The notes under the pieces were generated by a model that ran no database searches, was not told the origin of the DNA, and was given only the letters and a program-made list of their open reading frames with translations. Below, one piece after another: positions 3,082 through 43,361 of a stretch of 43,361 bases of DNA. How positions within the stretch are numbered: position 1 is the first letter of the stretch; every line of letters starts with the position of its first letter. Position numbers and translations under genes: made by a program. Source of the DNA: an uncultured Bacteroidales bacterium (GTDB lineage Bacteria > Bacteroidota > Bacteroidia > Bacteroidales > UBA932); the NCBI GenBank assembly GCA_900317925.1, contig ONIQ01000032.1:1-43361 (forward strand), written 5' to 3'.

Positions 3082-4734
3082 ATGAAAACGAAGAAAGCAA
3101 TGAAAAAGATTACACACATCGGCATGGCCGCCCTCGTTGCCATGGGCGTGCTTGGGTCCTCCTGCAACAAGGCGGAGAGCCCGGAGATTGAAACTCCTGA
3201 AACTCAGAAAGAAAACATCGTCACCCTGACCACCACAGTGGGCTTCGCTGCGGACGACACCAAAGCACTGACCGGCGCCGGCGTAAAGACCTTCGCCGAA
3301 GGCGAGAAAATGGTGCTCCGCTACAAGAACACGAAGGGTGATTGGGTGAAGGCGGTGAGCAATGCGCTGGAGGTAGGAGATATTGCCGACGGAAGCAAGT
3401 CCGCCACATTCACCTTCACCCTGACCAACCCCGACAAGACGAAGAACGTGGACTACATCTACCCAGCAGCGATAGTTAACGAACTCGGCAACATGGACGA
3501 GGCCGCCCTCTTCGGGAGTCAGGACGGTACGCTCAATAAAATCGCAAGCACATTCGACTACAGCAGGAAGATAGGCGCATGGGACGGCGAAAACCTGCCC
3601 TCGCTGACGCTGGAGAACCAGCTGGCCATCCTCGCCATCACACTGACGAACGCTGACGGCAGCAGCGACATCACCAGCAGCATCACGGGCCTGACCCTGA
3701 GCGACGGCACCAAAACCTACAACGTCACGCCCTCGGCAGCCGAAGGCCCCATCTACGTCGCCATCTTCCCTACAGAGGATGCCACCATCACGGTTGCCGC
3801 CACCGACGGCTCGAAGAACTACGCCAAGACGCTGACCGGCAAGACCTACGCAAAAGGCAACGGCTACCCGGTGAGCTGGAAGATGGCGAAGGTTATCAGC
3901 CTCTCGGGCAGATATCCCGGTGACGATGAGTTAGTGATTGCCGACGGCTGCATCCTGACGGGTTATGCTGTCGGTTCTTCTTGCAAGGTTTCCATCGCAG
4001 ATGGCGCCACTGTGACGCTCAGGGATGTGGAAAACAACGGGAAGATTGTGGACCACGGGACCATTTTGGAATGCCGCCCCGGCATCAAATGTTTAGGTGA
4101 TGCCACCATTATCCTGGAAGGTAATAACACCGTGACGGGAGGAGACCAATATGCCGGCATCTATGTGCCAGGAGATAAAACGCTCACCATCCGTGGCACA
4201 GGCTCACTCAACGTTACGGGTGGCTCCAGCGCAGCTGGCATCGGTGGCAACGCAACTGGCGACGCCAACTGCGGCAGCATCGTCATCAGCGGCGGCACCG
4301 TGAAGGCCACGGGAGGTTCCGGCGGAGCCGGCATCGGCCTCGGAGCCAATGGTGGGGGCTGCAAAGCTATCACCATCAGCGGCGGCACCGTGACGGCCAC
4401 GGGAGGTTCCGGCGGAGCCGGCATCGGCCTCGGAACCAGTTGGGGGGGCTGCAAAGCTATCACCATCAGCGGCGGCACCGTGACGGCTAAGGGTAGCGAA
4501 AATGCACCCGGAATCGGCGGTGTAGAAGGAGTTTACGAATCCATCACCATCACCGGCGACGTAACCAAAGTGACAGCTACCAAGGGTCCATTGGCCCAAT
4601 ACAGCATTGGAATCGAGGATGACTATTCTTGGGAAGACTGCGGCCCGATAACCATCGGCGGCACGGTGTACTTTGACGAGGGGAACTTCACGAACAATGA
4701 CCTTATGACCAGCTCGTTCGTATATCAGCCGTAA
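3082..4734 (+). CDS. fimbrillin-like lipoprotein with beta-helix-type glycine-rich repeats
   Basis: A 550-residue surface lipoprotein. The signal peptide has a lipobox at LGSSC with acylated Cys28. Residues about 45-270 have the fimbrillin-like (Mfa-like) layout, with a TTTVGFAAD strand, TKALT, and a YPVSWKMA ending. Residues about 290-520 are a second module made of short repeated strands (ISGGTVTATGG, GAGIG) like the Cthe_2159-type carbohydrate-binding beta-helix. A 90-bp tandem repeat encodes 30-residue units here. Such proteins are exported to the cell surface and may be adhesins or glycan binders. A 45-residue peptide gene lies 8 bases upstream and a strong hairpin terminator about 60 bases downstream. 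The last part of the coding sequence shares 41 identical bases with a broken gene tail at 5611-5651. An earlier ATG is not available in frame; an internal ATG at residue 7 is possible. Confidence 0.85.
   Translation: MKTKKAMKKITHIGMAALVAMGVLGSSCNKAESPEIETPETQKENIVTLTTTVGFAADDTKALTGAGVKTFAEGEKMVLRYKNTKGDWVKAVSNALEVGDIADGSKSATFTFTLTNPDKTKNVDYIYPAAIVNELGNMDEAALFGSQDGTLNKIASTFDYSRKIGAWDGENLPSLTLENQLAILAITLTNADGSSDITSSITGLTLSDGTKTYNVTPSAAEGPIYVAIFPTEDATITVAATDGSKNYAKTLTGKTYAKGNGYPVSWKMAKVISLSGRYPGDDELVIADGCILTGYAVGSSCKVSIADGATVTLRDVENNGKIVDHGTILECRPGIKCLGDATIILEGNNTVTGGDQYAGIYVPGDKTLTIRGTGSLNVTGGSSAAGIGGNATGDANCGSIVISGGTVKATGGSGGAGIGLGANGGGCKAITISGGTVTATGGSGGAGIGLGTSWGGCKAITISGGTVTAKGSENAPGIGGVEGVYESITITGDVTKVTATKGPLAQYSIGIEDDYSWEDCGPITIGGTVYFDEGNFTNNDLMTSSFVYQP
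4285..4489. repeat. 90-bp tandem repeat inside the lipoprotein gene
   Basis: The block starting ATCAGCGGCGGCACC occurs at 4285, 4375 and 4465, an exact 90-bp period over about 2.3 units with few substitutions. It encodes the 30-residue ISGGTV...GAGIG units. High DNA identity between copies means the repeat number can change by slippage or recombination, always in frame. Confidence 0.85.
4643..4683. repeat. 41-bp direct repeat, copy 1 (inside lipoprotein gene)
   Basis: Begins GCCCGATAACCATCGGCGGC and ends TTTGACGAGGGG(A). The same 41 bases recur at 5611-5651. In this copy they encode part of the C-terminal end PITIGGTVYFDEG of the intact lipoprotein. Confidence 0.95.
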
Positions 4735-17158: not shown

Positions 17159-17238
17159 TTGCTCATTACTAAGTACTTAACCTGAACAACTCCTGACAGT
17201 GTTCTCCCAGCCTGCTCAAAGAAGTGCCTGTTTCAAAG

Positions 17239-17484
17239 GGACCATCCATGTTAGAGGGCGTTTTCCAGGAAGGTCAAGGTGTTTTGAAGAGGACCTTCCA
17301 TGTTAGAGGCCGTTTTCATGGAAGGTCGGGGTGTTTTGAGGGGGACCTTCCATATTAGAGGGGGTTTTCATGGAAGGTCAGGCTGTTTTGAGGGGGACCT
17401 TCCATGTTAGAGGGCGTTTTCATGGAAGGTCAAGTTGTTTTGAGGGGCACCTTCCATGCTGGGGGCCGTTTTCATGGAAGGTCA
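17239..17484. repeat. 52-bp hairpin tandem array A (5 units)
   Basis: Units start at 17239, 17291, 17343, 17395 and 17447, an exact 52-bp period. Each unit has arm GACCTTCCATG, a 14-base loop with TTAGAGG..GTTTT, the inverse arm CATGGAAGGTC, and a linker with TGTTTTGAGGG. Units 2 and 4 have perfect 11-bp stems; units 1, 3 and 5 carry one or two changes. Each second arm can also pair with the first arm of the next unit (16-base loop). No unique spacers, no ORF. Confidence 0.95.
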
Positions 17485-17677: not shown

Positions 17678-17695
17678 TAATATGATTTGTCAAGC

Positions 17696-18860
17696 ATGGT
17701 AATTAACGACGAAAACACGTTCCGGCGCATCCGGACCCCTTTTTATTATTATGATATGCCGCTGCTGGAGCAGACGGCCGATACGGTAGCCGAGCTCTGC
17801 CGCCGCTATGACATCCATGTCCACTATGCGGTGAAAGCCAATTATGGCCGCCGGGTGATGGAAGTCCTTTCTTCCCGTGGATTCGGGGCCGACTGTGTGA
17901 GCGGCAACGAGGTGGTCCGCGCCTTCGAATGTGGCTTCCAGCCGTCCCGGATCATGTTTACGGGGGTAGGGAAGACGGACGCCGAGATGGCGGCCGGCCT
18001 GCGTCTGGGCATCCAGGCCTTTAATGTGGAATCGATGGAAGAACTGGCGGTCCTGGATGGCCTGGCCGGACGGATGGGCGTGGTAGCCCACGTGGGCCTG
18101 CGCATCAATCCGGGCATCGACGCCCATACCCATAAGTTCATCACGACGGGCCTGACCGGATGCCGTGATCGATGCCTTGCGGGAATGCAAGAATGTTTAC
18201 TTCGAGGGACTTCAGTTCCATATCGGCTCGCAGATTACCGACATCGAGGGCGTGTATGCGCACGAGTGCCGGCGGGCCGACGAGGTGGCCGACTACTTCG
18301 AGCAGAAGGGTATGCCGGTGCACAACCTGGATCTGGGTGGTGGCCTGGGTGTGGATTATGACGATCCGGATACCCATCCCATTCCGGAATTCGAGCGCTG
18401 GTTCAAGGTGGTGGATGCCTCGCTGAAGCGCCGCAAAGACCGCCGCATCCATCTGGAGCCGGGACGGGCGCTCGTGGCCCAGTGCGGCACGCTGGTCAGC
18501 CAGGTGCTGTATGTGAAGCATGCTGCCGACAAGGATTTCCTGGTGCTGGATGCGGGCATGAACGACCTCATCCGCCCGGCCCTCTATGGCGCGCGGCACC
18601 GCATCATGAAGTTTTTTGCCGCTCCGGACACGCCGATGCATCGTTACGATGTGGTCGGACCCGTGTGCGAATCGTCCGATGTATTCGCGGAAGGGGCGTT
18701 GCTGCCGCAGTGCCAGCGGGGCGACCTGGTGGGCCTGCGCAGTGCCGGTGCCTATGGACAGGTGATGTCCAGCCGATACAACCTGCGCGATATGGCGCCG
18801 TCGGTTTTCTCGGACCGTCTGGCCGTTGCGCCCATGCGTGAGAGTTTCCCGGAAAAGTAG
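17696..18860 (+). pseudogene. lysA: diaminopimelate decarboxylase, broken by a small deletion
   Basis: Two halves in different frames together make LysA, the last enzyme of lysine synthesis. The first half (17696 to about 18160) holds the PLP lysine in HYAVKAN and the segments DCVSGNE and INPGIDAHTHKFITTGL. The second half (from about 18156 to 18860) holds GLQFHIGSQI, NLDLGGGLGVDY, HLEPGRALV, LDAGMNDLIRPALY, and GPVCESSDVF. At the join (ACCGGATGCC, about 18155-18164) the expected segment with the KFG motif of the family is absent: about 26-29 bases appear lost between two CCGGA-like repeats, shifting the frame. All other motifs are intact and undegraded, so the event is recent or an assembly error. 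A restart at the GTG at 18165 would yield only the C-terminal half, without the PLP lysine. A TTG at 17687 in frame is an alternative start. Confidence 0.8.
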
Positions 18861-42783: not shown

Positions 42784-42792
42784 TCCCATCCC

Positions 42793-42828
42793 TGCCTTCA
42801 CTTCTGCCTTCACTTCTGCCTTCACTTC
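42793..42828. repeat. 12-bp tandem repeat (3 copies)
   Basis: TGCCTTCACTTC repeated exactly at 42793, 42805 and 42817, followed by a partial copy. It lies just behind the coaE stop codon and before array B. Confidence 0.9.
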
Positions 42829-42881
42829 CGCCTTCCCCCGGAAATTCCTGCGGTCCCCGGAAGGTCCTGCGCTTTTCAGGG

Positions 42882-43282
42882 GGACCTTCCATGCTGGAGG
42901 CTGTTTTCCCGGAAGGTTCTGCGTTTTTCAGGGGGACCTTCCATGCCAGCGCCCATTTTCCCGGAAGGTCCTGCGTTTTTCCGGGGGACCTTCCATGCCA
43001 GCGCCCGTTTTCCCGGAAGGCCCTGCGCTTTTCCGGGGGACCTTCCATGCCAGGAGCCATTTTCCCGGAAGGTCCTGCGATTTTCCGGGGGACCTTCCAC
43101 GCCAGAGGCCATTTTCCTGGAAGGTCCTGCCTTTTTCCGGGGGACCTTCCATGCTAGGAGCCATTTTCCCGGAAGGTCTTGCGCTTTTCCGGGGGACCTT
43201 CCATGCTAGAGGCCATTTTCCCGGAAGGTCCTGCGCTTTTCCGGGGGACCTTCCATGCCAGAGGCCGTTTTCCCGGAAGGTC
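42882..43282. repeat. 52-bp hairpin tandem array B (8 units plus partial)
   Basis: Units start at 42882, 42934, 42986, 43038, 43090, 43142, 43194 and 43246, an exact 52-bp period. Each has arm GACCTTCC(ATG), a loop with AGGCC-TTTTC, the inverse arm GGAAGGTC, and a linker with CTGCG-TTTTCCGGGG. A half unit precedes the first. The arms and geometry equal those of array A; loop and linker differ consistently (CCCGGAAGG here against CATGGAAGG there). The repeat lacks stop codons in several frames, so long false ORFs arise. Confidence 0.95.
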
Positions 43283-43361
43283 CCTGTCCAAGTGCTCTTA
43301 GTCTGCGCTATTTCGGGACACCTGGAACGAAAAACGCTCGTTTTGCTCCTGGTCTACACTA

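Follow-up and report, generated by a model that had tools for sequence, protein, structure and literature searches.

Array B, a run of hairpin repeats near the end of a 43,361-nucleotide contig of an uncultured Bacteroidales bacterium (the whole of this stretch is called the window here), is probably a REP-like element, amplified in tandem, that belongs to a divergent clade of RAYTs (REP-associated tyrosine transposases, or TnpA-REP), by which it would have been mobilised. This REP-like, RAYT-linked reading of the arrays, which we consider likely, rests on their dispersal in the genome, on the RAYT clade itself and its fold, on the pitch of the repeats beside RAYT genes, and on the links to two individual RAYT loci, termed L162 and C22 below. 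The features of the window on which the argument draws are as follows.

42856..43283, + strand: array B, eight 52-bp units, each with the arms GGAAGGTCC and GGACCTTCC in turn, separated by 14 nt and 20 nt; a ninth GGAAGGTCC closes the array
43247..43282, + strand: one exact hairpin GACCTTCC-20 nt-GGAAGGTC, in the same register as the RAYT-side copies
43284..43361, + strand: flank from array B to the contig end, containing GGACACCTGGAAC and GCTCCTGGTCT and overlapping the end of contig C14
42151..42783, + strand: coaE, dephospho-CoA kinase, upstream of array B, its stop codon 73 bp ahead of the array; given as context
17238..17484, + strand: array A, of the same family as array B and another subfamily, with hairpin GACCTTCCATG...CATGGAAGGTC; of the arrays in this genome, the one most like the doublet beside the L162 RAYT

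Tandem Repeats Finder (TRF) assigned array B a 52-bp period with 8.2 copies and 89% matches, and each of the eight units, when read directly, has the form GGAAGGTCC-14 nt-GGACCTTCC-20 nt; the eight 52-bp units described in the first-pass annotation are thus borne out. Two registers are possible, with either the 14-nt or the 20-nt spacer as loop. The former, chosen in that annotation, stands as one of the two, whereas the hairpins beside RAYT genes have the 20-nt spacer in the loop, and six exact hairpins of this latter form (GACCTTCC-20 nt-GGAAGGTC) lie within array B. Since both spacers recur in every unit rather than being unique, a CRISPR array was ruled out. Rfam gave no match at gathering threshold anywhere in the window, and the DNA of array B had no match among phage and plasmid records. 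Only 78 bp separate the end of the array from the end of the contig, and the GGACACCTGGAAC and GCTCCTGGTCT found there are motifs of a hairpin family that flanks a RAYT gene on contig C21 of the same genome. On the other side, between coaE and array B, a 12-bp tandem repeat, CTGCCTTCACTT, occupies window positions 42792-42835 with 3.7 copies, and a similar stretch also precedes the array in a related genome (L055 in G041, see below).

Array B is one member of a dispersed family. In the window's own genome (G000; 2.18 Mb in 75 contigs), a query with array B matched 20 places, and exact hairpins of the pattern GACCTTCC-N14-22-GGAAGGTC number 61, as against none for the reversed-pattern control. 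Thirteen array pieces of at least two units together hold 65 units; these counts and the array lengths are lower bounds, because 6 of the 13 pieces (B, C44a, C50, C75, C14 and C29) are less than 100 bp away from the end of their contig. Pieces B and C14 probably represent a single locus, which would give 12-13 loci: they have 84 of 87 bases in common after the array (three mismatches, last arm included) and both align to a single locus in G041, a related metagenome-assembled genome (RUG14513) reached through L018, so that C14 probably represents the other end of array B, as a copy or strain version with slight differences. Array A (4.8 copies by TRF) is related to array B beyond the arms, with 75% identity over 246 bp (E = 1.9e-41). 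The first-pass annotation was therefore right that A and B share period, arms and a common ancestor, and its expectation of many arrays per genome is borne out by these numbers. The arrays that were inspected are intergenic by coarse ORF calls, which are too crude for anything beyond this statement, and the orientation of the surrounding genes was left unused. With the whole of array B as DNA query, none of 40 relatives matched, 24 of them of the same genus; the exact hairpin pattern occurs 13 times in G041, again with none in reverse.

Some other repeats and irregularities were seen along the way. A lysA-like reading runs in two frames (window 17687-18361 and 18165-18860, within 17687-18860), as a frameshift in the assembled genome or a broken gene would produce; a 90-bp tandem repeat at 4284-4518 lies within an ORF (3082-4734) with beta-helix repeats (PF18889); and a short tandem repeat, GGCACGCCGCC, accompanies the C65 array (L013, around 1900-2000) in a gap that contains several more hairpin families.

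How the arrays relate to each other was judged from their units. Over all 65 units, mean identity is higher within arrays than between them (0.838 versus 0.784), a difference of 0.054 which none of 1000 label shuffles attained; the comparison of within- and between-array identity thus has the expected sign and a slight margin. Array B was said to be uniform inside, to have a consensus of its own and to have been locally homogenised, and none of this is supported. Its units have a mean pairwise identity of 0.83 among themselves and differ in their linkers; they match those of C44a (0.88), C75 (0.87), C48 and C29 (both 0.86) as well as each other, and the consensus is shared with several arrays, the units of C44a lying nearer to it than array B's own (0.93 versus 0.90). 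Array A is the outlier, at 0.70 to the units of array B. Moreover, the orthologous arrays of G041 are equally similar: A and its counterpart A' stand at 0.85 with 0.82 among the units of A, and B and its counterpart B' at 0.826 with 0.83 among the units of B. To judge by these identities, the within-array excess is better read as dispersed subfamilies than as recent array-by-array homogenisation.

Four arrays (A, B, C50 and C51a) occupy the same positions in G041, and at two more sites the flank on one side is shared with it; with at least four arrays thus kept in place, movement must be slow. The two related genomes do differ in unit number, a point that had been proposed for checking (8 versus 6 for array B, 5 and 5 for array A, at least 7 versus 3 for C50). 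The C44b array is absent from G041, where 26 unrelated bp stand in place of 339 bp of G000 between flanks that are 94% and 98% identical; from the alignment, this is a presence/absence difference and no clean excision. Arrays C44a and C48 have 226 bp of adjacent flank in common (90% identity), and a second hairpin, GTTCCGAAAAACC...TTTTTCGGAAC, adjoins C44a, C48, C74 and C29, which indicates that arrays travel or recombine with their neighbours as mosaics, as in BIMEs. Several hairpin families with no relation to each other are found together in the same gaps.

For the proteins to which the arrays would be linked, a search with the Pfam model Y1_Tnp (PF01797) gave weak matches in most same-genus genomes, two of them in G000, and a profile of four sequences then gave five RAYT-like genes in G000, on contigs C21, C66, C46, C22 (truncated by the contig end) and C19. 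All five proteins score below the Pfam cut-off and two have no Y1_Tnp match at E 0.1; some same-genus relatives pass the cut-off, with up to 41.9 bits. The clade is present in 87 of 101 same-genus genomes with 1-12 matches each; G041 has four, two of them weak. Its proteins measure about 280-310 amino acids, and M46, N48, H49, H51, Y108, N112, Y124 and W126 do not vary among the 42 sequences aligned. When the L162 protein was modelled with AlphaFold (mean pLDDT 91.8), a search of PDB structures with the model returned a single match at E <= 0.001, the complex of a RAYT with a REP hairpin in 4er8 (E 5.8e-4; 138 columns; TM-score 0.55 by target length); the remaining C-terminal half of the protein has no counterpart in this match. 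By sequence profile, the PDB gave no match below E 0.07, with ISDra2-type transposases at 0.18. The predicted structure together with the HUH and Tyr residues shows the clade to be a divergent RAYT with the RAYT (TnpA-REP) fold. As a curiosity, the C66 gene (L044, 3040-4095) has at its end copies of the repeat that flanks it, GGACCTGGTCC, read in frame and encoding PGPGPTT-type repeats, as if the gene had captured them. A second HUH clade occurs in the same genus (L035, L037, L038 and L073; about 305-365 amino acids, with N-H-x-H and Y-x-x-N-N), and its gene in L073 sits between terminator-like inverted repeats.

Beside these RAYT genes, repeats recur at the pitch of the arrays. Direct 9-mer repeats at 51-53 bp were found at 26 of 57 RAYT loci, counted after removal of the near-duplicates L108, L110, L111 and L129, with none at 48-50 bp and none at 54-56 bp (L044 also gives a 48-bp spacing under another flank cut); at the sensitivity used, the other 31 loci have no 51-53-bp repeat. 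Dinucleotide-shuffled flanks gave 0.45 such loci on average and two at most. Ordinary genes of G000 served as controls, and 4 of 222 show the pitch once the 24 of 246 with GACCTTCC or GGAAGGTC in a flank are left out (Fisher P 7e-17, which is too optimistic given residual kinship among the 57 loci); with these 24 included, the figure is 15 of 246. A second set of loci, collected independently by means of the C22 protein once the hypothesis had been noted, has 51-53-bp repeats at 7 of 28 (P 2.6e-5). Loci lacking an ORF that passes the HUH/Tyr filter were dropped (L109, L117 and L130, or 3 of 36, from set 1 and L160, or 1 of 29, from set 2). Within G000, three of the five RAYTs have 9-mer direct repeats at 51-53 bp in the formal test and two do not; those on C21, C66, C46 and C22 have family-like hairpins (perfect arms of at least 8) within 350 bp, and the hairpins beside the C19 gene are shorter and were seen by eye. 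The canonical GTAG/GTGG tag is not enriched, lying within 6 nt of the stem in 2 of 94 RAYT-flank hairpins versus 4.5 expected. A shared loop motif (RGSSGTTTT or GCGTTTTT) was convincing by eye and was dropped, with 10 of 57 RAYT loci against 19 of 246 controls, and 7 against 10. Another hairpin family, CCACCAAAA...TTTTGGTGG, forms pairs 46 and 51 bp apart (L099, 5298-5377, and L100, 117-197), and no RAYT was found for it.

A further question is whether the arrays themselves, and not just their pitch, can be connected to a RAYT. The best case is L162, the RAYT of another species of the genus (G108), whose protein is 37% identical to that of C22. Downstream of its gene stand GACCTGCCATAAAACAGGCCTTTTTATGGAAGGT, a linker and GACTTTCCATAAAACAGGCGTTTTTATGGAAGGTC, two hairpins whose alignment to array A spans two units and takes in arms, loop and linker. 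This flank scores highest of all, with 101 against the consensus of array A and 75 against that of array B, where the 222 control flanks average 25.8 (sd 4.9) with a maximum of 43 for A and reach a maximum of 51 for B; the search for GACCT[GT]CC came after the flanks were sampled, which makes L162 a case that was found and not one that was predicted. Second best is the flank of the C22 RAYT of G000, which carries a sister repeat of 51-bp pitch (61 for A, 72 for B) whose copies read GACCTGCC and not GACCTTCC. Copies of this repeat lie on C23, C15 and C27 of G000 and on C7 of G041, and the latter, itself an array-B match, is by its sequence a bridge between the C22-repeat and array-B versions. 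L135 scores 56 (A) and 54 (B), and the arms at L177, which have long loops, are marginally above the controls at 51-52. A RAYT gene stands beside members of the superfamily (L162, C22) and not beside the GACCTTCC arrays of G000: no GACCTTCC hairpin lies by any of the five RAYTs there or the four in G041. The GACCTTCC words near the RAYT of L151 were not counted as support, being part of another, imperfect repeat; at that locus, imperfect GC-rich repeats of another kind (CCCGTCCTGG...) extend over several hundred bases on both sides of the RAYT of G062. RAYT similarity and flank similarity are correlated (Mantel rho 0.21, with none of 999 permutations as high), and we call this correlation weak because it is carried by orthologous pairs, rho falling to 0.11 over 491 pairs once those with similarity >=0.6 are removed.

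If the arrays arose in this way, a RAYT would bind the hairpin in single-stranded DNA, for example in the lagging-strand template or a displaced strand, nick next to it and join it elsewhere, thereby seeding intergenic doublets. From two head-to-tail units, an array could then grow by replication slippage, unequal recombination or repeated RAYT processing, and such arrays may outlast any neighbouring RAYT. A passive satellite would do without a transposase altogether, i.e. an intergenic hairpin serving as terminator or mRNA-end stabiliser could have multiplied by tandem slippage and spread by recombination. The intergenic position of the arrays (on coarse ORF calls), the orthologous arrays that stay in place while unit number changes, and the lack of a GACCTTCC array by any RAYT in G000 all agree with such an origin; it leaves unexplained, however, why the same two-unit element adjoins a RAYT in another species (L162) and why the flanks of RAYTs, specifically, have the 51-53-bp pitch, and we regard it as unlikely.

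The dispersed structural element suggested at first, i.e. a nucleoid, segregation or recombination site or an RNA decoy subject to local homogenisation, could draw on the many intergenic copies and on the slightly higher identity within arrays, but array B has no consensus of its own, there has been no homogenisation since the split from G041, and the absence of a DNA match in 24 same-genus genomes would be odd for a site that organises the chromosome. This makes it highly improbable, and a link to RAYTs fits the anatomy of the arrays better than a nucleoid or segregation site, an RNA decoy or a recombination hot spot. Alternatively, the arrays might be non-autonomous elements of some other transposase or of an integron-like system, their nearness to RAYTs being secondary because both settle in permissive gaps. 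That several unrelated hairpin families occupy the same gaps speaks for this, yet permissive gaps would give no sharp 51-53-bp pitch beside RAYTs only (controls 4 of 222), and it too seems quite improbable.

More tentatively, and as a serious possibility short of a likely one, the RAYT-linked arrays may belong to a distinct REP/RAYT class, in which the long and mostly unannotated RAYTs of one Bacteroidia genus recognise two head-to-tail hairpins with a constant spacing of about 52 bp, with no GTAG guide and with hypervariable arms of each lineage's own, one genome housing several of these systems (with up to 12 RAYT matches) and some of them escaping as long tandem arrays. About 52 bp corresponds to five turns of B-DNA. 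RAYTs have been described as domesticated transposases, and both their benefit to the cell and their choice of substrate are poorly understood. A clade that is present in most sampled genomes of a genus, with a strict pitch and varied arms, thus amounts to a natural experiment on repeat recognition by RAYTs, and it would also account for the origin of assembly-breaking hairpin satellites, as at the 6 of 13 array pieces located at contig ends.

Of the groups described so far, TnpA-Y1 subclass 2.6 (Bertels group 5) of Bacteroidetes comes closest; its members have a median of 179 amino acids and an HuH-Y distance of 82, and 'atypical secondary structures' that recur at other genomic sites flank their genes (PMC6006769). 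By this published description it differs in both measures from the present clade, with its about 280-310 amino acids and an HuH-Y distance of 59 (H49 to Y108). TIRYTs and TIRtrons, defined by long TIRs with a GGGGWSAS motif, are similar in that RAYT-like genes are flanked by non-GTAG terminal repeats able to form families (PMC3733652). The REPINs of Pseudomonas fluorescens SBW25 are inverted REP doublets 71 and 110 bp apart, and there, too, doublets are the apparent unit of spread, tandem arrays occur and a RAYT is nearby (PMC3116915); here, in contrast, hairpins lie head to tail 51-53 bp apart and have hypervariable arms; they are near-symmetric, so that their orientation rests on loop and linker. 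In the literature searched, with subscription papers thinly covered, no account of hairpins spaced 51-53 bp apart next to RAYTs was found. REPtrons are reported from Escherichia coli, Stenotrophomonas and Marinomonas (PMC8266576). From the REP/RAYT systems the present one differs in the missing GTAG tag, in the direct 51-53-bp pitch of its hairpins and in its longer protein, with an extra C-terminal half as compared to the 165 residues of the 4er8 chain; as the canonical GTAG/GTGG tag is lacking, the array family is not filed as canonical REP. The E. coli type of BIME, with alternating REP orientation and two alternating linkers in tandem, finds a likeness here in layout only. What is common to REP/BIME and RAYT systems and to this one are short dispersed intergenic palindromes, alternating orientation with two linkers, and family-specific repeats by a Y1 HUH transposase gene whose predicted core fold is that of the REP-system RAYT 4er8. 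By its anatomy, the array family would work like REP.
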